Below the pieces are notes generated by a model that searched no databases, had not been told where the DNA came from, and saw only the letters and a program-made list of their open reading frames with translations. A DNA stretch of 64,000 bases from Candidatus Rhodoblastus alkanivorans. GTDB lineage: Bacteria > Pseudomonadota > Alphaproteobacteria > Rhizobiales > Beijerinckiaceae. The stretch is from the NCBI RefSeq assembly GCF_022760755.1, contig NZ_JAIVFP010000001.1, positions 2,832,001-2,896,000 on the forward strand, given 5' to 3'. This document shows, in pieces, positions 20,312 to 36,137 of the stretch. Every line of letters begins with the position of its first letter. Within the stretch, counting starts at the first letter, position 1. The translations under genes were made by a program, and so were the position numbers.

Positions 20312-20356
20312 TGAGTAGTTTCCGACTCTGCGCGGGCCCGGCCCGCCGCCTATGCT
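20312..20356 (+). promoter_or_regulatory. Stress-box promoter copy 1 (response regulator)
   Basis: Box TGAGTAGTTTCCGA at 20312-20325, -35-like CTGCGC at 20328-20333 and -10-like TATGCT at 20351-20356, 79 bp before the response regulator ATG. It lies in the intergenic region shared with the divergent hybrid kinase gene. Confidence 0.65.
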
Positions 20357-20434
20357 GAGGATCGGCAGGATCGCCACCGACGCGGAATGGGGATCGCGCG
20401 CCAACCCAAGCGCAGCACCCGAGGGAATCGCCTC

Positions 20435-20797
20435 ATGAAAAAACTGCGCGTGATGATCGTGGAAGACGACGGAATTATCGCCAAGCTGCTCGCCGAACTG
20501 ATCGAGGCGCTCGGGCATGAGGTTTGCGCCATCGAGTCCGGCGAGAGCGGCGCCGTAGCCGCCGCCCGTCGATCCAAGCCGGATCTGATGATCGTCGACG
20601 CGCATTTGCAGGATGGCAGCGGCATCGGCGCCGTCGAGACGATCACGGATATCGATCCCGTTCCGCATATTTTCGTCAGCGGGAACCCGTCCGCGGTCAA
20701 GCTTTTGAAGCCAAACGCAACCGTGCTGCAAAAGCCCTATTTCGAACTCGATCTGCTGCTCGCCATCCAGTCGGCGCTCGGTACTGCGGCGCCCTGA
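20435..20797 (+). CDS. Single-domain response regulator (CheY-like)
   Basis: A 120-residue stand-alone receiver: acidic pair IVEDDGIIAK, phospho-acceptor Asp in LMIVDAHLQDGSG (about residue 53), Ser in FVSGNPS and the conserved Lys in VLQKPY. It has no output domain, so it would act by phosphotransfer or protein contact. It is divergent from the hybrid kinase, the most likely partner. The start at 20435 is supported by GAGGGAA eight bases upstream. A stress-box promoter precedes it. Confidence 0.88.
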   Translation: MKKLRVMIVEDDGIIAKLLAELIEALGHEVCAIESGESGAVAAARRSKPDLMIVDAHLQDGSGIGAVETITDIDPVPHIFVSGNPSAVKLLKPNATVLQKPYFELDLLLAIQSALGTAAP

Positions 20798-20831
20798 ACG
20801 CGAGCGGTGTTTTCGCCTGACGCATGCGGCG

Positions 20832-20877
20832 TGAGTAATTTCCGACGCTGCCGCCAGCGGCGTCGGTCGCCTAGGGT
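20832..20877 (+). promoter_or_regulatory. Stress-box promoter copy 2 (dps)
   Basis: Box TGAGTAATTTCCGA at 20832-20845, CTGCCG at 20848-20853 and -10-like TAGGGT at 20872-20877, about 100 bp upstream of dps. Confidence 0.65.
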
Positions 20878-20977
20878 CCGACGTCATCGAGAGGATCTCG
20901 TTACGGCCCCTTGCCGAACGTCATGCCGGGCTGCTCGCGCCGCCGGCGCCTTTGCCCCTCAATCTGGAGACCCTGCC

Positions 20978-21457
20978 ATGCAGCCGACACGCAACACTTT
21001 ATCGGAAAACATCCGCGCTCAATCCGTTGGGCTCCTGAACAAGCATCTGGCGGCGGCGATCGATCTGCAGGCGCAAATGAAACAGGCGCATTGGAACGTG
21101 CGCGGGCCGGGTTTCATCGCCATTCACATGCTGTTCGACAAGGTCGCCATTGAGGCCGCCGGCTATGCCGATCTCATCGCCGAGCGCGCCGGCGGGTTGG
21201 GCGGGACCGCGCAGGGCACAGTGCAGAATGCGGCGGAACGCACTTTTCTCACGCGCTATCCGTTCGGAATCGCAAATGAAAAGGACCATGTCTTCGCCGT
21301 TTCGGGCGCCCTTGCGGCCTTTGGCGAATCGACGCGTGACGCCATCACCGAGGCGGCGACATACGGCGATCCGGAGACAGCCGATCTGTTCACCGGGATT
21401 TCGCGCGGCGTCGATCAACAGCTCTGGCTCGTCGAATCCCATATGGCTCCGCAATGA
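20978..21457 (+). CDS. dps: Dps-family DNA-binding ferritin
   Basis: A 159-residue ferritin-like four-helix protein with the Dps ferroxidase signature QAHWNVRGPGF...FDKVAIEAAGYADLIAER (His, then Asp and Glu). Dps dodecamers oxidise and store iron with hydrogen peroxide and protect DNA in stress and stationary phase. The ATG at 20978 is chosen because CTGGAG lies just upstream and the product then starts like Dps proteins (MQPTRNTLSENIR). A frame upstream of it is not conserved. The last four bases overlap the next small frame. The stress-box promoter upstream agrees with a stress role. Confidence 0.92.
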   Translation: MQPTRNTLSENIRAQSVGLLNKHLAAAIDLQAQMKQAHWNVRGPGFIAIHMLFDKVAIEAAGYADLIAERAGGLGGTAQGTVQNAAERTFLTRYPFGIANEKDHVFAVSGALAAFGESTRDAITEAATYGDPETADLFTGISRGVDQQLWLVESHMAPQ

Positions 21458-21633
21458 ACGAGCGCCTGTCGGCCAGAAGGCCTTTTGAAGTGTCGGTCGA
21501 GCGCCTGGGGCGCTGCCACATGGTCACGTTGCAATTCGCGAATTCGCACGAGCGCGAGGCTTCAACGCAAGTCGAGGCGCAAATCGCCGCTTGGGTGAAT
21601 GAAGGCGGCGCCGGCGGCGAAGTCAGGCGATGA
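21454..21633 (+). CDS. Small protein overlapping the end of dps
   Basis: A 59-residue frame starting in an ATGA overlap with the dps stop, which suggests translational coupling. The product (MNERLSARRPFEVSVERLGR and onward) is charged, with no signal peptide or membrane segment. I do not recognise it. Confidence 0.45.
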   Translation: MNERLSARRPFEVSVERLGRCHMVTLQFANSHEREASTQVEAQIAAWVNEGGAGGEVRR

Positions 21634-21793
21634 GGGGGCGGAGAAATCCGAACGCCCGACCTTTGCGGGTATCGCCGATCTGGCCGATGAATTCGTGCGG
21701 CTCCATGGTTCCTCTCCGCTGACCATCGACGTTCGATTCCGGGCCGCCGGCGTCGGCGTCCCGCGCTTCGATGGGGGCGTTGGGCGGCGTTGA
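21599..21793 (+). CDS. Possible small coupled reading frame
   Basis: A 64-residue frame (MKAAPAAKSGDEGAEKSERP then FAGIADLADEFVRLHGSS) overlaps the previous small frame by 35 bases and ends at TGA overlapping the next ATG. The family is unknown. The only support is the chain of overlaps and the lack of any other gene in 21634-21950. Confidence 0.3.
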   Translation: MKAAPAAKSGDEGAEKSERPTFAGIADLADEFVRLHGSSPLTIDVRFRAAGVGVPRFDGGVGRR

Positions 21794-21942
21794 TGAAAGC
21801 AATGCCGTCGCAACTTCCGATCAAAACTCCCCTGCCGCCGACGCCTGAATACGGCCGCAAATTCAGCGCGCTCGACGGGTTTCGGGCGCCGAAGCGCGTT
21901 CGCGGACGACGAAGCATCCGGCTTTCATCAAACGGATTTTGA
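21793..21942 (+). CDS. Possible small basic protein
   Basis: A 49-residue frame (MKAMPSQLPIKTPLPPTPEY then GFRAPKRVRGRRSIRLS) starts in a TGATG overlap. The basic tail might bind nucleic acid, but no family is recognised and no clear ribosome binding site is seen. Confidence 0.3.
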   Translation: MKAMPSQLPIKTPLPPTPEYGRKFSALDGFRAPKRVRGRRSIRLSSNGF

Positions 21943-21950
21943 TCGGTTCC

Positions 21951-22709
21951 TCAGGAACGGCCGGGCCAGTCATAATGCTTGCGGAGATCCGCTTCATAGA
22001 CTGGATCGATGTCCCCGAGCGGGCTCCACGGCGGACTCGACCTGACCTGATCCCGGCTGACGTTCAGGCGAATTTCTCGTTCCGCCCAGGAGATTTCCTT
22101 CACGGCATGGGGTGATATGAGCACATGCTCGCCTGACCACCAGTTTCCAGTATCGACGACCAGGAACCGAATGCCCCAGCCGTCATCGTCGATCAGGAGG
22201 TCCCCGACCTTGCCGATCGCGCCGTCGCTGGCGAGGATGTGATAGCCGGCGATGGCGGCGACGCTGCGCAGATGTGGATCGCTGTCGTCGCGACTGATAG
22301 CGGGAGTCCCGGCGGCCGGCGGCGACCCGAAAAGCGGCGGCGCGGAAAAGCGCGAGGCGATCGGATTCTCGCTGAAATAGCTGTCGCCGACAATCGGCTC
22401 CCAATTGTAATAGTCGTAGAGATGGCGCTCCATCTGGGTCGATACCGGTTCGTGCTCGGAAAGCTCCGGGCTAGCCTCGACCTGCGCCCGGGTCAGGGCG
22501 GCCGGCAGTTCCCGACGGTCGTGCTCCGCTTTGCCGAGCGCCGTCGGAAGCAAAAGGACCTTGCGCCCCGTCAGCCAATTTCCGGTGTCGACGACCAGCC
22601 AGCGCACCAGCCATGTCCTGTCGTCGAACAGGAAATCGGAAATGCTTCCGATCGCTCCGTCGCTCGCCTCTATGGCGTATCCCTTCAGGGTCGATCCGAG
22701 CTTGAGCAT
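21951..22709 (-). CDS. Protein with two PRC-barrel domains
   Basis: A 252-residue protein with two PRC-barrel repeats. Repeat 1 (about 10-90) reads GYAIEASDGAIGSISDFLFD and WLVRWLVVDTGNWLTGRKVL. Repeat 2 (about 150-235) reads GYHILASDGAIGKVGDLLID and IRFLVVDTGNWWSGEHVLIS. The linker is proline and serine rich. Such proteins are common in stress loci of soil bacteria, but their biochemical role is not established. There is no signal peptide, so it is probably cytoplasmic or membrane-peripheral. The stress-box promoter at 22747-22793 reads into it. Confidence 0.82.
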   Translation of the reverse strand: MLKLGSTLKGYAIEASDGAIGSISDFLFDDRTWLVRWLVVDTGNWLTGRKVLLLPTALGKAEHDRRELPAALTRAQVEASPELSEHEPVSTQMERHLYDYYNWEPIVGDSYFSENPIASRFSAPPLFGSPPAAGTPAISRDDSDPHLRSVAAIAGYHILASDGAIGKVGDLLIDDDGWGIRFLVVDTGNWWSGEHVLISPHAVKEISWAEREIRLNVSRDQVRSSPPWSPLGDIDPVYEADLRKHYDWPGRS

Positions 22710-22746
22710 TGTTGAGGCCTTGCCTTCTGCATTCTCTATCCGTCGG

Positions 22747-22793
22747 ACGATAAGCGTTGACGCTCATGCGACGACAGACTCGGAAACTACTCA
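22747..22793 (-). promoter_or_regulatory. Stress-box promoter copy 3 (PRC-barrel gene)
   Basis: On the minus strand: box TGAGTAGTTTCCGA (22793-22780), CTGTCG (22777-22772) and -10-like TATCGT (22752-22747), 37 bp before the PRC-barrel start. Confidence 0.65.
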
Positions 22794-22861
22794 GAGAAAA
22801 TATCGCTATCGTTTTCAGGTGCTTCGGGGGCATCCTGATAGGAATGGGCGCGCGGAAACGT

Positions 22862-23098
22862 TCAGATTCCAGGCTCTTCCCGCTCCTCGAAGCCCCGGCA
22901 GGATTGATCGAAGGCGGAGAGGACGTCTTCCAGATAATCCGGCAACATGGGAAGCCTCAGCAAATATTTGGCGATGTCGATCTCGCGCCCCTCGCGGGCT
23001 TCCTTGAGCGCCGCTCGCGCCAATCGGAAGCCTCGAAATCGCCTCGTCCGACCAAAATTCGCGATCGGCTCGACCCGGAAGCTGAAACCATGGGTCAA
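22862..23098 (-). CDS. Hypothetical protein
   Basis: A 78-residue frame from a TTG start. Residues 40-70 (DIAKYLLRLPMLPDYLEDVL) read like a real helical segment and codon use is reasonable, but the start lacks a clear ribosome binding site and I do not recognise the family. It lies upstream of, and in the same direction as, the PRC-barrel gene. Confidence 0.38.
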   Translation of the reverse strand: MTHGFSFRVEPIANFGRTRRFRGFRLARAALKEAREGREIDIAKYLLRLPMLPDYLEDVLSAFDQSCRGFEEREEPGI

Positions 23099-23383
23099 AC
23101 CGCCGATAGGCGATCCGTGCTCGACGCCATCATAAAAAAGCCACTCGCCGGGATGCGACTAGAGACTGGCCGGAGAACGATATTTTTGCACAATTGTCGC
23201 TCTAATGCGTTCGCAGTCCAGCCATGGATTTTTTGACCTTTCCGGGCGGAGGCATGCTGAAAGGAAACATAATTCGTATGAGCTGCTGCCGGTTTCGTGG
23301 TTCGATAGGCTCGATCATGCGCCACCGTTCCGCCAAAACTTGAATTGCTTCCGAATATGAGCCTCGAAAGGCCGAAAACGAGC

Positions 23384-23668
23384 ATGAAATCCGATCAGAA
23401 CAGCCTGTTTCGCAACGGTTTCCCCAAGGGCCGCCGCGAGTCCAGCCCGCACGAGCGTTCCTATGAGTCCAATGGTCCGGACGTCAAGATCCGTGGCGGC
23501 GCGCAACAGGTGGCGGAAAAATATCTTCAACTGGCGCGCGACGCTTTCACTGGCAATGATCCTGTCGCCGCGGAGAATCTTCTCCAGCACGCCGAACATT
23601 ATTTCCGGCTGACGGCGGAGGCCCGGTCCGAGCCATCCAGGCTTTCGGACGCCGGCCGGGTCGACTGA
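23384..23668 (+). CDS. Short DUF4167-domain protein
   Basis: A 94-residue protein whose core (RSYESNGPDVKIRGGAQQVA, EKYLQLARDA, AAENLLQHAEHYFRL) is the DUF4167 domain found at the N-terminus of alphaproteobacterial proteins. Full family members carry a long disordered, basic C-terminal part that is missing here. DUF4167 proteins are not biochemically characterised as far as I know. The frame is open from 23345; ATG 23357 and 23384 are both possible. Confidence 0.7.
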   Translation: MKSDQNSLFRNGFPKGRRESSPHERSYESNGPDVKIRGGAQQVAEKYLQLARDAFTGNDPVAAENLLQHAEHYFRLTAEARSEPSRLSDAGRVD

Positions 23669-23742
23669 GACATCGGCGCCCGCGCGACGTCAAAAAAAGC
23701 GGCCCGATGAGGCGGCCTTTTCCTATCAAGCATGACCGGAAC

Positions 23743-24096
23743 CTATTGAATCACATCGAGGATGCGATGGGTCCGCGGATCGACCAGCACGGTCTGATCG
23801 TTGACGATGGCGTAGCGATAATCCTGCACGCCATATTCGGAAGGAACCTCATAATAGCTCACCCTGCTATCGGTGTGTTCGGCGCCGATCGAGACCGCGT
23901 GACCATAGGCGTAGGAGCGATGGTGTTCGTGAACCGCGTAATCCCTGAAACGGGGCCGCTGGTCCAAGCCGAGCACGCCAGCGACAGCCCCGCTGACGAC
24001 CCCGGCAGGCATGGGCCGATCGGCTCGGGAAGCACTCACGCCATTTGCAAGAAATATTATGAATGTATAATATAAATTGTATTTCGCGTTCTCCAA
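23743..24096 (-). CDS. DUF1236-like exported protein
   Basis: The C-terminal part (YYEVPSEYGVQDYRYAIVND, QTVLVDPRTHRILDVIQ) is the DUF1236 pattern of small secreted alphaproteobacterial proteins. The N-terminus (LYYTFIIFLANGVSASRA) could be a signal peptide, but the region is AT-rich and only a TTG at 24096 is available as start, with no good ribosome binding site in place. The 5' end may be truncated or replaced. Function is unknown, probably in the periplasm or envelope. Confidence 0.55.
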   Translation of the reverse strand: MENAKYNLYYTFIIFLANGVSASRADRPMPAGVVSGAVAGVLGLDQRPRFRDYAVHEHHRSYAYGHAVSIGAEHTDSRVSYYEVPSEYGVQDYRYAIVNDQTVLVDPRTHRILDVIQ

Positions 24097-24129
24097 AATA
24101 AATATTGCGAATTCCTATAAGCAAATACA

Positions 24130-25233
24130 TCAGCCAGACAGAAAATGGCCAAGCGCGGCGAGGGGCCTGATTCCGTCGCAGACGATTTTCGTGATCGCCA
24201 GCATCGGCACGGACAGGATCGCGCCGGGAATGCCCCACATCCAGAACCAGAACACGAACGAGAAGATTACGAGCACCGGATTGAGGGTGAATCGTCTCGC
24301 CAGAATCAACGGCGTCAATGTCTCGCCTTCTACAATGTGAATCGCCAGATAGAGTCCGGCCGGCGCCAGCGCGCCCCACAGTCCGTCGATGGTCAGCAAT
24401 CCGGCAAGGAGGAAGGCGAATGTACAGAGGGCGGGGCCGATGATCGGCGCGTAATTCAACAGAAAAGCCAAAGTGCCCCAAAGGATCGGGTCTCCTACCC
24501 CCGTAAGTTGCATGACCAGGGCCGTGGCGAAGCCGACGAGAGCGTTCATGACGGTGATGGTCGCCAGATAGGCGGAAATATCGCTTTCAATCTGTTGCGA
24601 GATGGCGATTGCCTGGCGCTTGGCGCGGAAACCCGGCAGAATTTCGACCAGCCGCCGCAGGAAGCTGTCGCCCGCCAAAAGCAGGAAATACAGAAACAAT
24701 ATTGTGGTGAACAATGCGTCCGCGAAGCTGCGGGCGCCCGCGAAAAGAAAAGACAACAATCCCGCGCCCACCAGGGGGCCGTTCGCGGCGTTCGGCGCGC
24801 CGGTCGAGCCGATATTTTCCACCTGCTGAAGGAAGTTACGCAACGTATTGATCGGGCCTCGAAAAAATCCGAGCCGTTCCTGCAGCCTGGAAACGCCCTC
24901 GGGAAGCTTGGCCGCCCAGGCGTTGGCCGGGCCGGCGATCGCTGCGCCCAGGGCGACGACCCCGCCCAACAGGGCCAGGATGATCAGCAGGGACGCGACG
25001 GTTCTGGGAACGTGCGCCCGCTCCAGCAGGCGCATCAGGGGTTGCAGCAGGAGTTTCAACGTTATGGCGAAGGCCAGGGGCAGGACGATTTCCCGCGCAA
25101 CATAGGCAGCCGTCAGCACGGCGAGCGCGAAAAGGCCACCAAGGAAAATCACCTGCGGTTCGGACGGCAACGGCATTTCCGACGGCGGCTCGGCCTCGGC
25201 GTTCGTTTCGGTCTCCCGATCCGTGTCAGTCAT
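24130..25233 (-). CDS. AI-2E family membrane transporter
   Basis: A 367-residue inner-membrane protein of the AI-2E (YdiK/TqsA/PerM) family. It has an acidic N-terminal tail, transmembrane pairs near 30-90, a long amphipathic loop (WAAKLPEGVSRLQERLGFF) and the C-terminal bundle with the family motif NYAPIIGPALCTFAFLLAG and PLILARRFTLNPVLVIFS. Family members export autoinducer-2 or exchange ions; the substrate here is unknown. ATG 25233 is chosen because upstream in-frame sequence is not conserved and overlaps the next gene region. It is probably cotranscribed with the small membrane protein upstream. Confidence 0.85.
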   Translation of the reverse strand: MTDTDRETETNAEAEPPSEMPLPSEPQVIFLGGLFALAVLTAAYVAREIVLPLAFAITLKLLLQPLMRLLERAHVPRTVASLLIILALLGGVVALGAAIAGPANAWAAKLPEGVSRLQERLGFFRGPINTLRNFLQQVENIGSTGAPNAANGPLVGAGLLSFLFAGARSFADALFTTILFLYFLLLAGDSFLRRLVEILPGFRAKRQAIAISQQIESDISAYLATITVMNALVGFATALVMQLTGVGDPILWGTLAFLLNYAPIIGPALCTFAFLLAGLLTIDGLWGALAPAGLYLAIHIVEGETLTPLILARRFTLNPVLVIFSFVFWFWMWGIPGAILSVPMLAITKIVCDGIRPLAALGHFLSG

Positions 25234-25271
25234 GCCGAAATCCTGTGCCGCTTTGCGCCGAAGGCAAAGGT

Positions 25272-25430
25272 TCAGTGGAGGCCGCCAAGGAGCCAGACGA
25301 CGACGAGGATCACCAGAACCGTGCCGAGAACGCCCCCAAGCCCCGCACCGCCGTAGCGGCCGTGCGCGTAATAGCCTCCGGCTGCGCCGAACAAGACGAT
25401 CAGGATGATGATGATCAGAAGAGTGCTCAT
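25272..25430 (-). CDS. Small glycine-rich membrane protein
   Basis: A 52-residue protein with two hydrophobic segments (STLLIIIILIVLFGAAGG and LGGVLGTVLVILVVVWLLGG) around a polar YYAHGRYGG loop. The layout resembles DUF3309 proteins such as the one at 27932-28087, but the sequence differs. The start at 25430 follows AAGGGCG. It lies downstream of stress-box copy 4, so it is probably a stress-induced inner-membrane peptide. Confidence 0.65.
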   Translation of the reverse strand: MSTLLIIIILIVLFGAAGGYYAHGRYGGAGLGGVLGTVLVILVVVWLLGGLH

Positions 25431-25548
25431 GGGACGCCCTTTCGTCAGGTCCAGCTTCGGCCTCGCCGCTGACACCGTCAAGATCGACACTTTTCCGGTC
25501 GTCTTGAATCAATATGCGAGGGGCGCAAAAGATCATTGCGTCGGGAAA

Positions 25549-25594
25549 ATGCTAGCGAAGAGAAGTTCCGCGCGGGAGCGCCGGAAACTACCTA
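25549..25594 (-). promoter_or_regulatory. Stress-box promoter copy 4 (small membrane protein, AI-2E)
   Basis: Minus strand: variant box TAGGTAGTTTCCGG (25594-25581), CTCCCG (25578-25573) and -10-like TAGCAT (25554-25549), about 118 bp upstream of the 25430 start. Confidence 0.55.
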
Positions 25595-25656
25595 TGCGGT
25601 ACGTGACGATGAGGTCGACGAGACTGCGTCGTCGAGCCGACGGACAGCGTGGGCGT

Positions 25657-26352: not shown

Positions 26353-26502
26353 TCCTGGTGTTTCCTTGCCGCCGGATGGCGTTCGGGCGCCCGGCGCATG
26401 ACCTGCCTGAAGGGAGGCTTTGTCGAGCCTCGTTGAAGCTTGCCGCCAGCCTAGTCTCGTCGTCCAGGCTCGCGCAACCGTCTTGATGGCGGTGAAATTG
26501 TT

Positions 26503-27036
26503 TCAGCGGCGGCGCAATTCAAAGTCGCTCCGCAGGAACTGGAACAATTCGCGTCTCTGCCGATCGTCGAGGCTGACATAGAGCGGATCAGCGGCGTCGG
26601 CGAGTTCCTTAAGCGAAGCGCCCCTCGCGGTGAGGCTAGCCGCCATTTCGCGCAAGAGCGCGACATCGTTGGGGCGCTGGCTGCGGTCCTGGTCGCCGCG
26701 CTCCTGACGACGGGGGCGCTCCGCGCTTTCCAGGCCGGCTTTCAGCTGCGCGATCCCGTCGTCGTGCAATGCGATCCGCAAGGCTGGCCAATTCTTTTCC
26801 TGGCCGACGGTCAGATGCAGGCTGGCCTTGAGCTGGGCAACCCTGGCGTCGACGTCATTAGCAATCTGGTTGTCCGCCGGCGCCGTCGTCGGCGCCGCTT
26901 GCAAAGGTGAAGTTTTCATCATCGGCTCCGCTTGCGGGGGCGGAGGTTTGTCGCTGGTCTGGGCGTGCAAAGCGTTGAGGCCTGCGGCGCCTGTCAGGGC
27001 TAAGCCGGCAAGGCCAGTGATCAGAAATTTTCGCAT
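26503..27036 (-). CDS. Spy/CpxP-like (LTXXQ) periplasmic protein
   Basis: A 177-residue protein with a signal peptide (MRKFLITGLAGLALTGAAGL, cleavage near NALHAQ), a proline-rich linker, and a helical domain. The domain contains LKASLHLTVGQEKNWPALRI (LTxxQ repeat 1) and a second, weaker repeat YVSLDDRQRRELFQFLRSDF. Spy-type proteins act as ATP-independent periplasmic chaperones or modulate envelope stress kinases. The start at 27036 follows GGGAG and gives a proper signal peptide; the longer frame upstream has no signal peptide. Promoter copy 5 lies about 145 bp upstream. Confidence 0.75.
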   Translation of the reverse strand: MRKFLITGLAGLALTGAAGLNALHAQTSDKPPPPQAEPMMKTSPLQAAPTTAPADNQIANDVDARVAQLKASLHLTVGQEKNWPALRIALHDDGIAQLKAGLESAERPRRQERGDQDRSQRPNDVALLREMAASLTARGASLKELADAADPLYVSLDDRQRRELFQFLRSDFELRRR

Positions 27037-27178
27037 CTCGTGCTCCCAGGAATTCTTGCGAAAGGCGGAATCGACGCGGGCGCCGTCGCGCGACAATTCA
27101 CCGTGGCTCGGACGATGGCGTCGACGCTCGGGGACGGCCGCAAGCTTTCCTTTCGCGGAGCGCCTGAGCCCGTGCGAA

Positions 27179-27225
27179 AAACATCTCATGGCGCAAAGTG
27201 CTCCGGCAGCGTCGGAATACACTCA
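27179..27225 (-). promoter_or_regulatory. Stress-box promoter copy 5 (Spy-like gene)
   Basis: Minus strand: box TGAGTGTATTCCGA (27225-27212) and CTGCCG (27209-27204). The expected -10 position (around 27184-27179, ATGTTT) is a poor match. The box and -35-like element are strong, the -10 weak. Confidence 0.5.
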
Positions 27226-27358: not shown

Positions 27359-27405
27359 TGAGTATATTCCGATTCTGTCCGGTCGGCTTCCCGGAGCGGT
27401 AAATT
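27359..27405 (+). promoter_or_regulatory. Stress-box promoter copy 6 (csbD-like operon)
   Basis: Box TGAGTATATTCCGA at 27359-27372, CTGTCC at 27375-27380 and -10-like TAAATT at 27400-27405, about 148 bp before the CsbD-like start. Of all copies this box is closest to the enterobacterial RcsAB box. Confidence 0.65.
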
Positions 27406-27552: not shown

Positions 27553-27735
27553 ATGGACAAAGATCGCATCGCCGGAGTCGCCAAACAGGCCAAGGGCGCT
27601 ATCAAGGAAGCCGCCGGCAAAGCCCTCGGCGACGCCAAGCTCGTCGTGGAAGGCGAGCATGACAAGGCTGAAGGCAAGATTCAGAACGCCGTTGGCGGCG
27701 CAAAGGACGTGCTGAGGAAAAGCCTGAAGAATTGA
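27553..27735 (+). CDS. CsbD-family stress protein
   Basis: A 60-residue hydrophilic protein with the CsbD pattern: DKDRIAGVAKQAKGAIKEAA, GKALGDAKL, EGEHDKAEGKIQNAVGGAKD. CsbD proteins are small, abundant general stress proteins with no known enzyme activity; the sequence predicts amphipathic helices. GGAG at 27541-27544 supports the start. It is the first gene of a plus-strand series with DUF3309 and DUF883 proteins, read from promoter copy 6. Confidence 0.85.
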   Translation: MDKDRIAGVAKQAKGAIKEAAGKALGDAKLVVEGEHDKAEGKIQNAVGGAKDVLRKSLKN

Positions 27736-28511: not shown

Positions 28512-28568
28512 GCCGCGATGGTCCCGTGAATTGGGGACCGTCGCAGCTGAGCCACATGAGCGGATGCG

Positions 28569-28990: not shown

Positions 28991-28999
28991 GAAAGAAGT

Positions 29000-29571: not shown

Positions 29572-29639
29572 AACCGTCTATCCACGTTGTGCGGGATTTG
29601 CCGTCAAGGGCGGGATTTGGCTTCAGGCTATGCAAAACA

Positions 29640-29663
29640 GGGCCGCCGACTGGCGGCCCTTTT
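29640..29663 (+). terminator. Rho-independent terminator after the polyhistidine gene
   Basis: Perfect 8-bp stem GGGCCGCC (29640-29647) / GGCGGCCC (29652-29659), then TTTT. It ends the plus-strand unit and faces the minus-strand transglutaminase gene. Confidence 0.75.
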
Positions 29664-29703
29664 CGTTGCGCGATTTCCCCCTCCGATCGCGGCAGGATCG
29701 CAC

Positions 29704-30567
29704 TCAAGCCAGAGCCGCGACCTCGACTTGCACCGCCATGCCGATAAAGGCGTCGCTGGCGCCAACGAAACTGCCCGCCACCGGCATGGCCTGGCGGATG
29801 TCGCGCGCGACCGCGACGGGGATGAGATTAAAGCCGCCGAAGCTGCGGTTGGTCGGATCGAACGTGATCCAGCCCGCGCCCGGCACGTAGATTTCCGCCC
29901 AGGCATGCGTCGAGCCGGCGTCGGCTGAACCGTTGGTCCCCGGTTCGGCTCCATGGAGATAGCCGGAGACGATCCGCGCGCCAAAGCCCAGACAGCGGGC
30001 GGCCTCGACGAACAGCACCGCGAAATCGCGGCACGAGCCCCAGCCGCGATCGAGCGTCTGGACCGGAGATTGCACGCCTTCGTCTTCGCGGCTCTGATAA
30101 TTGATCCAGGCCGACACGCCGACGCTGAGGTCCTTCAGCAGCGCCAAAGTGTCAGTCTGCGCGCCGCGCACGAAGGCCCAGGCCCAATCGCGCAGGCGTC
30201 CGGTCGGATCGGCATATTGCTGGAACATCAGGGCGCCGAGATCGGTTCGCTCGTCTTCGGCATAATGAAACGGATAGAAAATGGCCGAGGCCGCAACATC
30301 GAAGATGGGCCAGGCGACGGCGTCGAGAGTCAGCTGCGTCACGCAGTCGATCGTCAGCGTGTCGGCCACGCCATTGAAATGGGCGGTCGCAATGGAATTG
30401 CCGAACACGTCATGCGCGAAAGTCACGGTCGCCTGCGGTTCGATTTTCAACGCGCTCGAAATCAGCCGCAATTCGCGGCTTTCGCGCGGGCGCAGCATCA
30501 GGCGGTGCGGTCCGAGGCTCACGGGCTGGCGGTAGCGATACGTCGTCTTGTGGCGGATTTGCAGCAT
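29704..30567 (-). CDS. Transglutaminase-like cysteine protease-fold protein (1)
   Basis: A 287-residue protein with an N-terminal Bact_transglu_N beta domain ([31 protein letters not shown]). A transglutaminase-like core follows with catalytic Cys in [12 protein letters not shown], His in [10 protein letters not shown] and Asp in WITFDPTN. Such proteins are cytoplasmic, often next to stress or alpha-E/circularly permuted ATP-grasp genes, and substrates are mostly unknown. ATG 30567 fits the family start. It is one of three paralogues within 4 kb, the others being at 31586 and 32408. Confidence 0.85.
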
Positions 30568-30813
30568 GGTCAAGCTGGGCCCCATCCTTCGCCGAAACAC
30601 GGAAGCTGCTTCCGATCAAAATCCCTTTGCCAAGGCGCCTTCAAGGGAAGCTGCCTGGAGGATAAGTATACATTGGCCAATCGCGGGTTCTCGGTCATGT
30701 GGCAAGACGATTGCTTGACGCCATTCCAGATCGCAGATGATCGTGCCATAACGTTGGTTATGCCGCCACCGTCAGCCCGGCGCCCTTGAAATGTGGCGCC
30801 GGCATATTCAGAA

Positions 30814-31518
30814 TCAGGGCGACGGTTTGACAAGCGGTTCGGCGCCGAGCGCGTTGAGCAAGGACTTCGCCGCAAGTTCCGATGACGCCGGATTCTGCCC
30901 TGTGATCAGCCGCCCATCGACGACGACGTAGGGCTGCCAGTCGCCGGCCCTGGAATAAATTCCGCCGTTTGCCTGAAGCATATCCTCGACAAGAAAGGGA
31001 ACGACCGCAGTCAGCCCGACCGCCTGCTCCTCGCTGTTGGTGAAGCCTGTGACCTTCCTGCCTTCCACCACGGATCGCCCCTGCGGCGTTCGCACATGGC
31101 GGAGAATACCCGGCGCATGACAAACGGCGGCGACCGGCTTGTCTGCGGCAAGTGCGCCTTCGACGAGCGCGATGGACATCTTGTCCTCCGCGAGATCCCA
31201 GAGTGGGCCATGACCGCCGGGATAAAATATTGCGTCGAAACCTTTAGGGGAAACGTCGCTCAATTTGAGCGTGCCCGCCAGAGCGGCTTTTGCGGCGGCA
31301 TCTGCTCTGAAACGCCGGGTGGCGTCGGTCTGCGCCTCCGGCGCGTCGCTTTTCGGGTCTTCCGGCGGCTGCCCGCCGAGAGGTGAAGCGAGTGTGACTT
31401 CGGCGCCCGCATCCACGAACACGTAATAGGGAGCAGCGAACTCCTCCAGCCAGAACCCGGTCTTTTGGCCGGTTCCGCCAAGCTGGTCGTGGGAGGTCAG
31501 AACCATCAGAATTTTCAT
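30814..31518 (-). CDS. DJ-1/PfpI-family protein, Hsp31-like
   Basis: A 234-residue member of the DJ-1/PfpI (class I glutamine amidotransferase-like) superfamily. The nucleophile elbow is AAVCHAPGILR (Cys near 131), with an acidic residue in FWLEEFAAPYYVF and FYPGGHGPLWDL upstream. The length and GQKTGFWLEE match the Hsp31/glyoxalase III-like branch, which detoxifies methylglyoxal or acts as a holdase under stress. It lies between transglutaminase genes on the same strand. Positions 30568-30813 hold no supported gene. Confidence 0.85.
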   Translation of the reverse strand: MKILMVLTSHDQLGGTGQKTGFWLEEFAAPYYVFVDAGAEVTLASPLGGQPPEDPKSDAPEAQTDATRRFRADAAAKAALAGTLKLSDVSPKGFDAIFYPGGHGPLWDLAEDKMSIALVEGALAADKPVAAVCHAPGILRHVRTPQGRSVVEGRKVTGFTNSEEQAVGLTAVVPFLVEDMLQANGGIYSRAGDWQPYVVVDGRLITGQNPASSELAAKSLLNALGAEPLVKPSP

Positions 31519-31585
31519 GTCAGCACCTGTGAAGTCGGGGCGGCGTTACTCAAGCCGCCGCGTCAAGAATGAGTGGCGATTCACT

Positions 31586-32407
31586 TTACGGAATGCGCGA
31601 CGGAGACTGCTCGTCGGTCAGAATCTCAAAGCGCACGAGATTTGCGACGCCGAAGGCTGTCGATAAGGGGACGTCCGCGGCGTCGCGGCCGCGTCCCATG
31701 ACGATGCGGCCGATGCGCGGATGGTTGTGTCGCGGATCTATGGTCCACCACCGCCCATCTAGAAAGACCTCGGCCCAGCCGCTGAAATCCATCGGGCTGA
31801 TGTCGGGCGGCACGCCGATGTCGCCAAGATAGCCTGTGCAATAACGCGCGGGAATGTTCAGGCAGCGGCAAAGCGCGATGGCCAGATGGGCGAAGTCGCG
31901 ACAAACGCCGACGCCTTCCTGCATCGAGTCGCTGGCGCTACGCGTCGGGCGCGCGTCGGCATAACTGAAGCGGATTTTCGAATGAACAAAGTCGCAGACA
32001 GCCTGAACGCGCCTGTAGCCGCCAGCTATTGTTCCAAACGTCGACCATGCGAAATCAGCAAGCTTGTCGCTGTCGCAATAGCGGCTCGAAACCAGAAACA
32101 GCAACACATCATCGGGAAGACAGGAGATTGGCGTCAAACCCGTGTCGGGCGGCGTTTCATCCGGCTGGCCGGAATCGTGGATCACGAAGCGGTTGCTGAA
32201 GGTGACCAGGCCCGGCGGCGCTTCCAGACGTGTTACGCGATTGCCGAAAAGATCGAGATAGGACCGCATCGGCAGAGGCGGAACGGAATTGATGACATCC
32301 GGCGAAACCAGATCCGCTTCTCGCGACGGATGGATGTTGAGCTGAAGCAGCATCGGCGTCTGCGCAGGACATTCAAATGCGATGTCAAATCCCGCCCGGA
32401 TGAGCAT
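31586..32407 (-). CDS. Transglutaminase-like protein (2)
   Basis: A 273-residue paralogue of a different subgroup. An N-terminal beta domain (RAGFDIAFECPAQTPMLLQL) is followed by a core with catalytic Cys in GVGVCRDFAHLAIALCR, then PMDFSGWAEVFLDGRWWTID and the family motif RHNHPRIGRIVMGRGRDAAD. The His normally found before WAEV in the other two paralogues reads Ser-Gly here, so activity may differ or use another His; I cannot tell whether this subgroup usually lacks it. Its ATG abuts the stop of paralogue 3 with no gap, so the two are coupled. Confidence 0.8.
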   Translation of the reverse strand: MLIRAGFDIAFECPAQTPMLLQLNIHPSREADLVSPDVINSVPPLPMRSYLDLFGNRVTRLEAPPGLVTFSNRFVIHDSGQPDETPPDTGLTPISCLPDDVLLFLVSSRYCDSDKLADFAWSTFGTIAGGYRRVQAVCDFVHSKIRFSYADARPTRSASDSMQEGVGVCRDFAHLAIALCRCLNIPARYCTGYLGDIGVPPDISPMDFSGWAEVFLDGRWWTIDPRHNHPRIGRIVMGRGRDAADVPLSTAFGVANLVRFEILTDEQSPSRIP

Positions 32408-33415
32408 CTAGCAGTCCTCGTGTTTGGGTTGCTCCGCCGTTTCGTCCGAACGGTTCGACGCGTTCGAGCGATGCGCCTCGCCCGAAATTCCATCCCATTG
32501 CAAAAGATTCTGATCACCCGTGGTCAAAGGCGCGCTTTCGGGGAGCCGTCGAACATGGACGGAGACCTCCATTCCCGCATCGTCCTCAGGGTCGCCGAAA
32601 TAGCATCCATGGAGGGGAATGGCCTGATGCGCCTCCCTTGCCACGGCAATGCGAATGAGATCCCGGCTGCCGACGATGCCATTGGTCGGATCGAATTCGA
32701 CCCAGCCGGCGCCGGGCAGATAGATCTGGCACCATGCATGCGTCGAGCCGCCGCCGAGATGGCGATCGTCGACGTCGCGATCCGGCACATAGATATAGCC
32801 CGAGACGAAGCGCGCGGCGAAGCCCATGGCGCGCGCCGCCTCCATCATCAAGGTTGCGAAATCGCGGCACGTGCCGCGCCCCGAGGAAAGCGTCTGCAGC
32901 GGGCTGCGCGTTCCCTTCGCGGTGCGGCGCTCATAGGTCAGCCCCTCCTTGATCGCATAGGTCAAGGTCATCAGCAGCCTGCCCGTCTCGATTGGGCGTC
33001 CTTGAGGGAATAATCGCTGAACCCAATGATGGAGTTCGCCGGCGGGATCCGGATAGTGCCGCTCGATCAGACGAGCCAGATCCGGAATTTCGTCGGCGTC
33101 ATAGGCGAACGGGTAATGCCGCGCGCGATCCTCCAGGAGAAATTCCGGCCCCTCGTAGGGGGTGTGCTCGAGCGTCAGATTGTTCTCCACCCGGAGGCTC
33201 TGCGTCACGCCGGAGAAATTCGCAATCGCCACGCAATTGTCGAACACGTCGTGAATCCAGCGCAGGTTATGGGGCCGCGGTTCGATATCGAGCGTGGCGT
33301 TCAAAAGCCGCTGATCGTTGCTATCGCGTGGGCGGAGCATCATCCGGTGCTCTCCGAGCCGTACCGGCGTGGCGTAGGAATAGGTCGTGACATGCTTGAC
33401 GGTCAAAATTGTCAT
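32408..33415 (-). CDS. Transglutaminase-like protein (3)
   Basis: A 335-residue paralogue close to copy 1: Bact_transglu_N domain (TVKHVTTYSYATPVRLGEHR), catalytic Cys in SGRGTCRDFATLMMEAAR, His in GSTHAWCQIYL and Asp in WVEFDPTN. A polar C-terminal tail of about 60 residues is probably disordered. ATG 33415 is preferred; in-frame sequence further upstream lacks family similarity. It is the first gene of the minus-strand pair with paralogue 2, and stress-box copy 7 points at it from about 285 bp upstream. Confidence 0.85.
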   Translation of the reverse strand: MTILTVKHVTTYSYATPVRLGEHRMMLRPRDSNDQRLLNATLDIEPRPHNLRWIHDVFDNCVAIANFSGVTQSLRVENNLTLEHTPYEGPEFLLEDRARHYPFAYDADEIPDLARLIERHYPDPAGELHHWVQRLFPQGRPIETGRLLMTLTYAIKEGLTYERRTAKGTRSPLQTLSSGRGTCRDFATLMMEAARAMGFAARFVSGYIYVPDRDVDDRHLGGGSTHAWCQIYLPGAGWVEFDPTNGIVGSRDLIRIAVAREAHQAIPLHGCYFGDPEDDAGMEVSVHVRRLPESAPLTTGDQNLLQWDGISGEAHRSNASNRSDETAEQPKHEDC

Positions 33416-33699
33416 GCGTTTTCGGCCGATCGCTGATCCGTTGGATCGCTGCGGAACCAGGGCCTGCCCAAAAGGGAAAGCCGATGGTCGCGCGAGCGCA
33501 AAGGGCGGGTCGCCGTCGCATGCCGCCGGGTAAGCGCCGCCGTGCTTGGCCATGACCAGGACAACGGCCGCCGTAGCCTAGGACAACGCCCAAGGGGTGA
33601 CAATCAGAAGCGTGTACATTTTTGGCCCTCTCGGCGATCTGGAGCCGCTGGGGCGTAGCCGCCGGGCGGTCCGGCGCCATAACATATCGCGCAGATAGA

Positions 33700-33745
33700 A
33701 ATCTAAGAGACGGAATCATCGCGCGGCAGCGTCGGAAAACACCTA
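33700..33745 (-). promoter_or_regulatory. Stress-box promoter copy 7 (transglutaminase operon)
   Basis: Minus strand: variant box TAGGTGTTTTCCGA (33745-33732), CTGCCG (33729-33724) and -10-like TAGATT (33705-33700). It is back to back with copy 8 in a 557-bp region (33416-33972) that otherwise holds no supported gene. Confidence 0.6.
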
Positions 33746-33855
33746 TGGACCTTGCGGCGATAGCCGGGACTGGATCGCGTCGCGAGGCGTTGGTCCGGCG
33801 CGCCGCCAGCATCGGAACGAAGATGCGCGCGGACGATGTCTCGACTGGAAGGAGA

Positions 33856-33901
33856 TGAGTAGATTCCGTCGCTGTCGCGACCGCTCACTCATCTCCATTG
33901 T
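33856..33901 (+). promoter_or_regulatory. Stress-box promoter copy 8 (small membrane proteins)
   Basis: Box TGAGTAGATTCCGT at 33856-33869, CTGTCG at 33872-33877 and -10-like CATTGT at 33896-33901, 71 bp before the 33973 start. Confidence 0.6.
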
Positions 33902-33972
33902 GCAAAACTGTTAGCGCTGCAGGCGAGACTGACGATCCCGCTGGCAGCCGGCGATCAGAACGGGGCGACAAA

Positions 33973-34125
33973 ATGTCGGTGCTAGGGAGCGGCCTTATCA
34001 GCGTGACATTGTTTGCGGTCGGCTTCGGCTTTTTGATTCCCGTCAGCGGTTGGATCGGCGACCTTGCCGATTTCGGCGGAATTCTTTCGGGAATCGTGTT
34101 TATCGGATTGCTCGAAGGCGGATAG
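33973..34125 (+). CDS. Small membrane protein
   Basis: A 50-residue protein with two hydrophobic segments (LISVTLFAVGFGFLIPVSG and FGGILSGIVFIGLLEGG) joined by a short WIGDLAD loop. No family is recognised. It is placed just downstream of stress-box copy 8, so it is likely a stress-induced membrane peptide. Confidence 0.55.
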   Translation: MSVLGSGLISVTLFAVGFGFLIPVSGWIGDLADFGGILSGIVFIGLLEGG

Positions 34126-34267
34126 CGTTTGGAATGCACGAATTGTGACCCGGTCCAGGCCGAGGCTGTCGGTAACGCAGTGATCAGTATTTTGGCGCGA
34201 CGTTCGACGTCACGATCGGCGCATCACCATTGCTTCTCGTTTTGATCGACACGTGGAGGAGGACACG

Positions 34268-34486
34268 ATGCGCATGCTTATCGCCCTGTTAGTGATTGCC
34301 TATCTTGTCGGCGTTGGCGTCACGCTAGCGCCCACGATTACAGCAAACTGGAACGCCGGCTCCGCATCGCAATTCGTCGAGAAGGTCGTAGCGGAACTGC
34401 CGAGAGCGTTATCCTGGCCGGCGGCGGCTTATCGCAGCGTTGCCCAGAAGCCCAGCGCTCCTGAAAAGCCTGGCGGCGCCCAGTAG
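34268..34486 (+). CDS. Small single-span membrane protein
   Basis: A 72-residue protein with an N-terminal hydrophobic segment (MLIALLVIAYLVGVGVTLAP) that may be a membrane anchor or uncleaved signal. A short periplasmic part follows (QFVEKVVAELPRALSWPAAA, YRSV) and a Pro/Lys-rich tail. GGAGGAGG ending five bases before the ATG is a strong ribosome binding site. Similar small proteins occur in other alphaproteobacteria, as far as I recall, but have no assigned function. Confidence 0.65.
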   Translation: MRMLIALLVIAYLVGVGVTLAPTITANWNAGSASQFVEKVVAELPRALSWPAAAYRSVAQKPSAPEKPGGAQ

Positions 34487-34636
34487 CCATCCTTACGCGA
34501 CGTAGACGTTCGCCCCCAGGCTGATCGAGAACGCTTTCCGACACCATGGGACGGCTTATTGCCGCCCCTGCCGGGCTTTCATCGCCGGGCTGGAAAAAAC
34601 GGCGCCCAAACAGCCGCAACAGCGCCGCGGCGCCTG

Positions 34637-34681
34637 TGAGTACTTTCCGAGCCTACCGGCGGCTTCGTCGACCGTTACGAT
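34637..34681 (+). promoter_or_regulatory. Stress-box promoter copy 9 (phasin)
   Basis: Box TGAGTACTTTCCGA at 34637-34650, CTACCG at 34653-34658 and -10-like TACGAT at 34676-34681, 42 bp before the phasin ATG. Confidence 0.62.
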
Positions 34682-34723
34682 GCAGAAATGCCAACAAGCC
34701 CCGATAGCCAAGGATTTCGAATT

Positions 34724-35116
34724 ATGGCCAACACCTTCGAACAGCAGATCTCCACAGCAAGCGCCGACGCACTGTCCAAGAGCGCCCAAGCCGCGGACAA
34801 GATCATGAAAGAAAGTTCCAACACTCTGACCGAAAGCGGAAAAGGCTCTGCCGCCGCCGTTCAGGACTTGATCAAAACCTATCAGGAATTGGCGGCAAGG
34901 AATGTCAAGAACCTGACCGCCGCCATGGAAGCGCTTAGCGCCGTGAAAAGCCCGGCGGAGTTTATGGAATTGCAGCAAAGGCTGATTAAAGAGAGCGTTG
35001 AAGCAGCCGTCAATGATAGCCGTCAAATCGCCCAGTTGACGAACGCCGTGTTCACTGCCGCTTTCGAGCCGGTGAAAAAGCAAATGGAAGCGGCGCAGAA
35101 GACCACTCGGACATAA
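34724..35116 (+). CDS. Phasin-family protein
   Basis: A 130-residue helical protein with the phasin pattern: FEQQISTASADALSKSAQAA, QDLIKTYQELAARNVKNLTA, AEFMELQQRLIKESVEAAV. Phasins coat polyhydroxyalkanoate granules and some act as stress chaperones. No PHA synthase is in the window, although the DUF3141 protein at 37.2 kb is distantly related to one. ATG 34724 gives the normal family start (MANTFEQQ). It is followed by a good terminator, so it forms a single-gene unit under stress-box copy 9. Confidence 0.85.
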   Translation: MANTFEQQISTASADALSKSAQAADKIMKESSNTLTESGKGSAAAVQDLIKTYQELAARNVKNLTAAMEALSAVKSPAEFMELQQRLIKESVEAAVNDSRQIAQLTNAVFTAAFEPVKKQMEAAQKTTRT

Positions 35117-35153
35117 GTCAGGATACTTATTCGTCCCCCCGATGTTTTTTTTG

Positions 35154-35184
35154 AGCCGTGCTTCGTCACCGAGGCGCGGCTTTT
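35154..35184 (+). terminator. Terminator of the phasin gene
   Basis: Stem AGCCGTGCTT (35154-35163) with AGGCGCGGCT (35172-35181), 10 bp including G-U pairs, followed by TTTTCCTTTT. Confidence 0.7.
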
Positions 35185-35310
35185 CCTTTTGAAAGATAAG
35201 GCGTTACACCATTGCACGTCGTCAGACGGGCGTCTTCGGCCGCTGATCGGGAGGTTGCGAGGAAGAAGTCTGCGTCCGGCGGTTGGCCTGATCTTCGGTC
35301 GCAGGTTGGA

Positions 35311-35357
35311 TGAGTACATTCCGAACCTGCCTCGGCGGTCGGCGCGTCTGATAATTT
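35311..35357 (+). promoter_or_regulatory. Stress-box promoter copy 10 (second polyhistidine gene)
   Basis: Box TGAGTACATTCCGA at 35311-35324, CTGCCT at 35327-35332 and -10-like TAATTT at 35352-35357, 61 bp before the 35419 start. Confidence 0.62.
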
Positions 35358-35418
35358 TCCATGTGTTGCAGGTCTGCCGAGCCAATTCGGGGGCGCAGCA
35401 AGCAAACGGAGTTTACCA

Positions 35419-35694
35419 ATGAAAACCCGGTTGATTTTAACCGCCGGCCTTCTTGGCCTTTCTGTCGTCCTTTCGACGCCCCTCGCCGCACAGGCTCAGG
35501 GCGTTATCAGGGGTGGCGAGCGAGGCGCGGCCCAAGGTGGGCGCGCCGCCGGTCCGGTTGGCGCAGCGGTTGGCGGCGTGGTCGGTGGAGTGACCGGTGG
35601 CGTCGTCGGCGGCGTCAAAGGCGTGGTGGGCGCTCCTCAGCGCCATCATTATCACCACCACCATCGTCATTACCGCCATCACCACCATAGGTGA
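35419..35694 (+). CDS. Exported glycine-zipper protein with polyhistidine tail (second copy)
   Basis: A 91-residue protein with a signal peptide (MKTRLILTAGLLGLSVVLST, cleaved near PLAAQAQ), a long glycine zipper (GPVGAAVGGVVGGVTGGVVG, GVKGVVG) and a tail rich in His, Tyr and Arg (HHYHHHHRHYRHHHHR). Same layout as 29338-29571, with different sequence in the signal and linker. A periplasmic or envelope metal-binding or pore-like role is inference. It is under stress-box copy 10. Confidence 0.7.
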   Translation: MKTRLILTAGLLGLSVVLSTPLAAQAQGVIRGGERGAAQGGRAAGPVGAAVGGVVGGVTGGVVGGVKGVVGAPQRHHYHHHHRHYRHHHHR

Positions 35695-35844
35695 TAGCAA
35701 TCCAGCCGGAACGGTGTGCATCAAGCCTATTGTTCTGGCTTTCTTTGACATTGCCTGAGTGGGTCGTTTTCCGGAAATGGGAAGGTCCGCACGGAGCGAG
35801 CGCGGTCACGCGTTGAGGCTCTACTATGCCGCCCATATAACGCG

Positions 35845-36040
35845 AACTCGCCCAGAATCGCCCGCCTGAAGGCTATGGGCGTCGAGAGCGTCGGCAAGCT
35901 CGCGCCGCGACAGCGGTAAATCATGGAAAGGGTTCTCGCCGGCCATCCCAGCAAGAACATCGCCGTCGGCCGCAATCATAGCCAGCGCATGGCGGCGCGA
36001 GTTCGCCTCGCCCTCGCCGCAAGCCTGGAAGGCGCGCGGG
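35845..36040 (+). pseudogene. Decayed FixJ/LuxR-type HTH fragment
   Basis: In one frame the DNA reads LAPRQR, stop, IMERVLAGHPSKNIAVGRNHSQR, then a degraded ARVRLALAA end. This is recognisably the same motif as the C-terminal HTH of the hybrid kinase at 15856 (LTPRQKQVMEMVLAGHPSKN, ISQR, ARLAVAA). It contains an in-frame TAA and a deletion after NIAV. It appears to be the dead end of another FixJ-type regulator, directly upstream of stress-box copy 11. The rest of 35695-36264 holds no intact gene. Confidence 0.6.
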
Positions 36041-36090
36041 AAAAGCGCGCTCAGCCCCCTCCTTCTGGTCCGCGGGCCGGCGGTCGGCTC

Positions 36091-36137
36091 TGAGTATTTT
36101 CCGAATCTGCCGCACCGCAGCAACCGCGCGCTGTGTG
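36091..36137 (+). promoter_or_regulatory. Stress-box promoter copy 11 (stomatin gene)
   Basis: Box TGAGTATTTTCCGA at 36091-36104 and CTGCCG at 36107-36112. The expected -10 position reads TGTGTG (36132-36137), a poor match. It lies 127 bp before the stomatin start. Confidence 0.5.

Follow-up and report, generated by a model that had tools for sequence, protein, structure and literature searches.

The window analysed here, a 64,000-nucleotide stretch of the Candidatus Rhodoblastus alkanivorans genome (positions 2832001-2896000 of contig C1; genome 4,345,403 bases, 4.35 Mb), carries eleven copies of a promoter element in which a 14-bp box, TGAGTA-N2-TTCCGA, precedes a poor -35 hexamer, CTGnCG, and a -10 hexamer, TAnnnT. 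We propose, with a probability of about 0.85, that these boxes are the operators of a FixJ-subfamily activator, namely the C-terminal receiver (REC) and helix-turn-helix (HTH) part of the adjacent CheB-CheR-PAS-kinase-REC-REC-HTH protein. The data establish how the promoters are built, that they lie between genes, that they occur together with and beside one HTH subfamily, and that the box differs from the FixJ operator. The regulon extends beyond the locus in the window, and plasmids and several proteobacterial classes carry the system as well.

Eleven copies of one promoter element

A 22-position matrix was trained on 127 sites with at most one mismatch, including the window's own copies of that class, from 618 kb comprising the window, stretches of its own genome, eight other genomes of the same genus and three further relatives. 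It finds exactly eleven sites of at least 15 bits in the window, all within 20312-36134 (20312+, 20832+, 22793-, 25594-, 27225-, 27359+, 33745-, 33856+, 34637+, 35311+ and 36091+), and none in the reversed control; these are the same eleven copies that an earlier note, made from the letters alone, had claimed. The exact box occurs nine times in the whole genome, seven of them in the window, where two more copies have one mismatch, and the reversed pattern does not occur. At up to three mismatches, the short box shows no excess in the window (33 against a shuffle mean of 30.2), which is background, thus the signal resides in the class of zero or one mismatch and in the longer element. Genome-wide, the box followed by N2 and CTGCCG gives 15 matches at up to three mismatches, against 6 for the reversed pattern. 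Six further sites of at least 15 bits lie outside the window in the own genome, of which three stretches were scanned. Mean pairwise identity among the eleven copies is 0.75 within the element and 0.27-0.28 in the flanks; the flanks are unrelated, so the copies are not derived from one repeat.

A strict TAnnnT stands 25-27 bp past the box in eight of the eleven copies (1, 2, 3, 4, 6, 7, 9 and 10). The other three are those already singled out by the earlier note: copy 8 has CATTGT, and copies 5 (GATGTT) and 11 (CGCTGT) are weak. The hexamer of copy 10 is read as TAATTT at 35352, with GATAAT at 35350 as an alternative. A twelfth box-like sequence at 24025-24038 (minus strand), containing TTCCCGA, is weak at 11.5 bits and has the best window score below the eleven copies.

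Architecture of 294 promoters

The wide set holds 294 distinct sites of at least 15 bits: 17 from the own genome, 124 from stretches of relatives (10 of these from outside the genus), 109 from named loci (none from two in-genus loci, whose sites were counted already) and 44 from plasmids. Their consensus is T[GA][AG]GTA-N-[TA]-TTCCGA-N2-CTG[CT]C. The -10 hexamer is not part of the matrix; TAnnnT is found at offset 38-43 from the box start in 166 of the 294 sites, against 1-8 in seven other offset windows. The peak is sharp, with 30, 70 and 61 sites at offsets 39, 40 and 41 and 0-4 at each other offset from 22 to 74, and at these three offsets the hexamer stands 25-27 bp past the box and 17-19 bp past CTGnCG, the very spacing that the earlier note had read from the window. 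Each group contributes to it: 11/17 sites in the own genome, 73/124 in the stretches of relatives and 76/153 in the named and plasmid loci, where two control windows gave 0-3 (3 and 0 for the last group).

According to a simple gene finder, 285 of the 294 sites are intergenic, compared with 1090 of 5000 random positions (22%), and 221 of the 281 sites with a same-strand downstream gene lie within 300 bp of its start, compared with 15% of random positions. Conversely, only 9 of the 294 sites fall within called genes, against 3910 of the 5000 random positions; this check on whether the motif is mere background in coding sequence, a doubt raised by the earlier note, was run in part, on sampled stretches. 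The layout is that of a sigma70 promoter dependent on a class II activator, with a -10 at fixed spacing, a poor -35 and an abutting box, and, as far as sequence goes, the box is an imperfect inverted-repeat operator beside the -35, as in NarL/FixJ regulators. The CT of CTGnCG (offsets 16-17 from the box start) is 94-97% invariant, beyond what a -35 would appear to need, and the activator may also read it.

The candidate regulator and its co-occurrence with the box

The 1470-amino-acid protein encoded at 15856-20268 (minus strand), adjoining copy 1, is very probably the regulator of the boxes, judging from the company that its HTH keeps in other genomes. Pfam resolves it into CheB-CheR-PAS_10-HisKA-HATPase_c-REC-REC-GerE, the last being the HTH at residues 1411-1465. 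With HisKA, HATPase_c and a receiver in one chain it is a hybrid histidine kinase, and its receiver and C-terminal GerE HTH also make it a NarL/FixJ response regulator. The link between the box and this HTH, suggested by the earlier note, is supported by cross-species co-occurrence. Among 60 genomes of relatives, an HTH of at least 66% identity is present in nine of the eleven genomes of the genus, including the own genome, in G019 (two copies) and in G039. These eleven HTH carriers all have the box pattern, as do G036 and G058, with one match each. Counted over the 59 relatives without the own genome, the pattern is present in all ten HTH carriers vs 2 of the 49 others (Fisher 1e-9). G036, which lacks the HTH at this cut-off, encodes a shorter REC-HTH protein of 48% identity adjoining its box, and G003 and G010, of the same genus, have neither the HTH subfamily nor the pattern.

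The same association is seen in 241 genomes sampled evenly over the class, where the HTH (E <=1e-14) is found in 15, the pattern in 18 and both in 13, while a control pattern occurs in 9 genomes with one match each. Without the own genome, the pattern is present in 12 of 14 HTH carriers vs 5 of 226 others (table 12, 2, 5, 221; Fisher 9e-15). The two genomes with the HTH only, G072 and G087, hold variant boxes within ~1 kb of the hybrid. In G114, where the pattern occurs twice, the HTH falls just past the cut-off (E 3e-14) and lies ~9.5 kb from a box; in G144, G192, G214 and G269 the HTH was not found even at 1e-8, and their single pattern matches are near the chance rate. Box and hybrid are also adjacent: a box lies at most 600 bp upstream of the start in 21 of the 26 full-length hybrids with enough flanking sequence, and the gene beside the hybrid is a single receiver in the window and on several annotated plasmids.

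Two genomes of the same genus, G005 and G009, have 44 pattern matches each, many clustered on few contigs, which amounts to a large regulon expansion. Another genome of the genus, G008, has a decayed hybrid gene (L225, G008:C29:186000-189500), and only three boxes reach 15 bits in the stretches examined of it, possibly a loss of the system.

Predicted operator and recognition helix compared with FixJ

The S. meliloti FixJ operator (the fixK site) is TAAGTAATTTCCCTTA, FixJ sites selected by SELEX (systematic evolution of ligands by exponential enrichment) are GTAGTTTCCC and GTAMGTAG (PMC4999443), and the R. palustris FixJ site is GTACGTAG (PMC13327599). TAAGTAATTTCCCTTA and GTAGTTTCCC agree with the window box through TTCC, after which FixJ sites have C and the box has G. 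Indeed, the base after TTCC in 245 box-like sequences is G in 242, A in 3 and C in none; the box thus departs from the FixJ operator in the form TAAGTAATTTCCC or GTAGTTTCCC, as its C is replaced by G or A. The published FixJ site TAAGTAATTTCC is also permitted as a box start. With G in the box where FixJ sites have C, the regulator looks like a FixJ-subfamily activator with its own operator, presumably acting on sigma70-type promoters.

The earlier note had likened the box to sites of the RcsAB/NarL-FixJ class. The NarL/FixJ class stands, but the closest operator found is the FixJ site and not the RcsAB box, which is likewise a 14-bp imperfect inverted repeat of this class; no search was made with the RcsAB consensus, and the FixJ site is a close match taken from a paper.

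Among solved structures, FixJ comes closest to the hybrid HTH and belongs to the same HTH family, and the recognition region reads SPRTVEVHRAN in FixJ vs SQRTVENHRAA in the hybrid, with P changed to Q, V to N and N to A. Q-N-A or Q-N-S occupies these helix positions in 34 of 41 motif-linked proteins, whereas unlinked proteins, a group that includes short contigs with little sequence around the HTH, mostly have other residues. One of the Q/N/A residues might, at a guess, read the G after TTCC. Unlike FixJ, the hybrid HTH is fused to CheB-CheR-PAS-kinase-REC, and the system is also carried by plasmids; FixJ has few targets, of the fixK/nifA type, according to PMC4999443, whereas here many stress promoters are involved.

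CheB-CheR fusions as such have been described, in the Rhodospirillum centenum hybrid RC1_3878 (in the part available of PMC2890560) and, by a title cited in PMC6159551, in Azospirillum cyst formation. They share CheB and CheR in one protein with the window hybrid, and the partial accounts available mention neither an HTH output nor an operator.

Spread to named genomes, plasmids and other sensors

A scan of named genomes was restricted to the best 80 of 565 loci. In loci L125-L173, 41 of 49 hold a box of at least 15 bits, and in L174-L204, nearly all with ordinary FixJ-like HTHs, 1 of 31 does (L187, 15.5 bits). Box-bearing loci include Rhodopila, Magnetospirillum, Rhizobium, Xanthobacter autotrophicus, Nitrospirillum, Acidisoma, Roseiarcus, Paraburkholderia, Pseudomonas baetica, Asticcacaulis and Shinella. 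Once loci under 8 kb and the in-genus L125 and L126 are set aside, 67 named loci are left, and a box of at least 15 bits accompanies 35 of 39 loci with the helix signature vs 1 of 28 without it, the signature having been chosen after the data were seen.

A tblastn search of a plasmid collection with the REC-HTH returned 25 records at E <=1e-40. Each of the ten plasmid regions examined has one or more boxes of at least 15 bits, with a total of 45 boxes and none in the reversed controls; single-box regions are those of Methylocapsa, Acidiphilium and Agrobacterium. Methylocystis plasmids share much of the window gene set (DUF3309, AI-2E, CsbD and response regulator, with Dps and Spy in MJC1). The Phyllobacterium, Lichenicola, Polymorphobacter and Caballeronia islands together add oleate hydratase, alcohol dehydrogenase, acetate kinase, phosphoketolase, universal stress proteins, BON and slipin, although not every gene listed for these four islands has its own box. 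Several plasmid islands carry insertion sequence (IS) elements. On an Agrobacterium pusense plasmid (L214), a divergent hybrid relative (49.5% identity) is found with a single box that lies within a polysaccharide cluster, which suggests possible re-use of the wiring.

Other proteins carry a related HTH without the sensor. A REC-HTH protein lacking CheB/CheR has boxes within ~3.5 kb in L159 and a box directly downstream in L114; a split system in L218 has boxes, and in L215, a 224-amino-acid protein, in which only the HTH is similar to the hybrid and the remainder has no Pfam match, has three boxes within 2 kb. Boxes near HTH proteins with different sensors mean that the association follows the HTH and not the sensor. 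The box accompanies this HTH into other alpha-, beta- and gamma-proteobacteria, onto plasmids and into proteins without CheB/CheR.

Predicted target genes

For the downstream genes named by the earlier note, Pfam gives a response regulator, a Dps-type ferritin, PRC-barrel, LTXXQ/Spy, phasin, transglutaminase, Band_7, DUF3309 and CsbD proteins in the window, with no match for the targets of copies 8 and 10, and the stress character that it had assigned to the regulon is upheld across species. The targets comprise 229 genes that a simple hexamer gene finder placed no more than 350 bp from a site; this finder missed some short genes such as the His-rich gene of copy 10. Among them are at least 21 receivers, 14 CsbD, 13 DUF3309, 11 PRC, 9 BON, 7 ferritin/Dps, 7 Spy/LTXXQ, 4 oleate hydratase (MCRA), 3 phasin and 3 trehalose phosphatase proteins, each figure being a lower bound, together with some sigma factors. 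A random 120 of the 1194 non-target genes of the same loci, some of which may belong to target operons, gave 6 receivers and 4 DUF3309 proteins, thus receivers and DUF3309 are mildly enriched, if at all; CsbD, PRC, BON and ferritin are not among the families with two or more members in these 120 control genes. The target set suggests a role in surviving starvation, drying or low oxygen.

Two loci have boxes in front of sigma-factor genes, L098 17240-17827 (plus strand) and L211 1466-2326 (minus strand), one of them with a PhyR_sigma2 match, a possible link to other stress circuits. Similar target types belong to the PhyR-NepR-EcfG general stress response, which has a different type of regulator and whose EcfG-type promoters are nearly absent from box regions. 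The low-oxygen-activated locus (lxa) of Burkholderia likewise groups stress and metabolism genes that are controlled together.

Discussion

Binding to the box, activation rather than repression, the phosphorelay and the existence of a signal are what we infer, and we propose the following order of events. Some signal would cause the kinase to phosphorylate the receivers, and the HTH would then dimerise on T[GA][AG]GTA-N2-TTCCGA, directly upstream of the poor -35 (CTGnCG), and recruit sigma70 polymerase to a TAnnnT -10 located 17-19 bp past CTGnCG, that is, by class II activation. The predicted regulon would serve stress, maintenance and fermentation, with CsbD, Dps, PRC, BON, Spy-like, DUF3309, phasin, trehalose phosphatase and stomatin proteins, and would include genes such as alcohol dehydrogenase and oleate hydratase on plasmids. 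The divergent single REC gene beside the regulator probably belongs to it, and regulator and box would move together, often on plasmids and IS-rich islands.

We further consider it reasonably probable that this is a widespread, mobile and self-contained stress system, in which one polypeptide has its own operator code (G for C) and an open-ended promoter cassette, so that genes may join through the 22-bp element and a -10, and in which the HTH is re-used with other sensors on the same operator.

Several observations weigh against our proposal. The 80 named loci were selected by their HTH, and co-occurrence counts ignore phylogeny; island genes travel together, and a linked gene could mimic the association. 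Four of the 39 signature loci have no box and one of the 28 others has one (15.5 bits); among the four, L174 is a broken gene piece, and L140, L150 and L154 stay exceptions. A strict TAnnnT is absent at the three offsets in 134 of the 294 sites, three of the window's eleven among them. In G039, the pattern match scores only 14.4 bits and is on another contig, although the HTH contig carries a 19.9-bit box; in G006, 12.9 kb around the hybrid have no box even at 11 bits, and both boxes are on another contig. Pfam finds no HPt domain in the window protein. Finally, boxes beside the hybrid mostly point to the divergent gene, away from the hybrid, thus autoregulation of the hybrid is unsupported.

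We weighed five other explanations. First, the regulator might be a repressor or a dual regulator and not a class II activator, since a box touching the -35 could equally block polymerase; unphosphorylated FixJ represses nif in R. palustris (PMC13327599). We regard this as unlikely: the box is just upstream of the -35 and not over it, its centre ~34 bp before the -10 at a near-fixed spacing (161 TAnnnT at three adjacent offsets), and the poor CTGnCG is what activator dependence would lead one to expect. Second, the boxes might be bound by FixJ itself or by another NarL/FixJ-type regulator, with the hybrid as an island passenger. The box is close to the FixJ operator, the own genome encodes two more FixJ-like HTHs (47-48% identity), the island genes are linked, and boxes and hybrid are on different contigs in G006. 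But G003 and G010 have FixJ-like HTHs (45-50% identity), yet neither the subfamily nor the pattern; 27 of the 28 named loci without the helix signature have no box; C follows TTCC in 0 of 245; and the box stays with the HTH when the rest of the protein differs. Binding by such a regulator is, on balance, quite improbable.

Third, so long and strongly conserved an element in many copies might be the recognition sequence of an alternative sigma factor, which is very unlikely, as the box ends 25-27 bp before a sigma70-like TAnnnT and CTGnCG occupies the -35 at a 17-19 bp spacing. Fourth, these genes might form an ordinary PhyR-NepR-EcfG general stress regulon; Dps, CsbD and PRC are typical of stress regulons, and a few boxes precede sigma-factor genes, one with the PhyR_sigma2 match. 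However, the EcfG promoter consensus, GGAAC-N16/17-GTT, sought with a spacer of N15-18, occurs in 2 of the 294 box promoters vs 42 of 1112 control upstream regions, and none of the 11 window promoters has it, which makes an EcfG regulon highly improbable. A dispersed repeat, mobile element or chance can be dismissed in spite of the IS elements on several plasmid islands, as across genera the pattern keeps to a single HTH subfamily, the 27-28% flank identity among the eleven copies excludes a repeat, and the absence of reversed-control matches excludes chance (with a smaller margin at up to three mismatches, 15 vs 6, and none for the short box).

No description of the box or regulon was found in the open-licence literature, subscription papers lying outside the search, and a regulator of the FixJ family that combines an operator of its own with an unusual fused sensor and a mobile stress regulon appears to be undescribed. 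The proposal provides a predicted operator and regulon for very large hybrid kinases, which are mostly labelled chemotaxis protein CheB or CheR family methyltransferase in plasmid records, and a common regulator for genes that are individually poorly understood (CsbD, DUF3309, PRC-barrel, BON and Spy-like). It also allows one to predict which plasmids and islands bear a transferable stress programme. The single base that separates the box from the FixJ operator, together with a short change in the recognition helix, poses a directly testable question of specificity in this regulator family.

Promoters and genes of the window

The copies below were located by the matrix and, except where stated, the target genes were assigned by gene calls and Pfam. 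Copy 1 (20312-20356, +; CTGCGC, TATGCT) lies between the divergent hybrid and REC genes and precedes a single-domain response regulator (20435-20797, +), and copy 2 (20832-20877, +; CTGCCG, TAGGGT) precedes the Dps-type ferritin (20978-21457, +). Copy 3 (22747-22793, -; CTGTCG, TATCGT) precedes a double PRC-barrel protein (21951-22709, -). The variant box of copy 4 (25549-25594, -; TAGGTA..TTCCGG, CTCCCG, TAGCAT; 17.2 bits) stands before a DUF3309 small protein (25272-25430, -), next after which comes an AI-2E transporter gene (24130-25233). An LTXXQ/Spy-like protein (26503-27096, -) follows copy 5 (27180-27225, -; TGAGTG..TTCCGA, CTGCCG, weak GATGTT), and a CsbD family protein (27553-27735, +) follows copy 6 (27359-27405, +; CTGTCC, TAAATT).

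Copy 7 (33700-33745, -; variant box TAGGTG..TTCCGA, CTGCCG, TAGATT) heads a same-strand gene run (29704-33415, -) with transglutaminases at 32408-33415 and 31586-32407, a DJ-1/PfpI protein at 30814-31518 and a member at 29704-30567 that is transglutaminase-like by eye only. Copy 8 (33856-33901, +; TGAGTA..TTCCGT, CTGTCG, CATTGT) precedes a small hydrophobic protein of 50 amino acids with no Pfam match (33973-34125, +), and copy 9 (34637-34681, +; CTACCG, TACGAT) precedes the phasin (34724-35116, +). The target of copy 10 (35311-35357, +; CTGCCT, GATAAT or TAATTT) is a His-rich small protein with no Pfam match (35419-35694, +), taken from the list of open reading frames (ORFs) because the simple gene finder missed it. 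Copy 11 (36091-36134, +; CTGCCG, no clear -10) has downstream of it a stomatin/SPFH gene (36133-37048, +; Band_7) whose frame is broken into two ORFs.

A search of window positions 12000-40000 for known structured RNAs gave 0 Rfam matches at gathering scores. Each ORF of the split stomatin/SPFH gene matches part of the Band_7 profile, indicating a broken gene or an assembly error. ORFs at 13708-15317 (minus strand), beside the hybrid gene, are by eye what we take to be pieces of an IS21-type transposase. At 35903-35990 (plus strand), a short distance upstream of copy 11, is a decayed fragment of a second HTH of the same subfamily, the remnant of another regulator gene.

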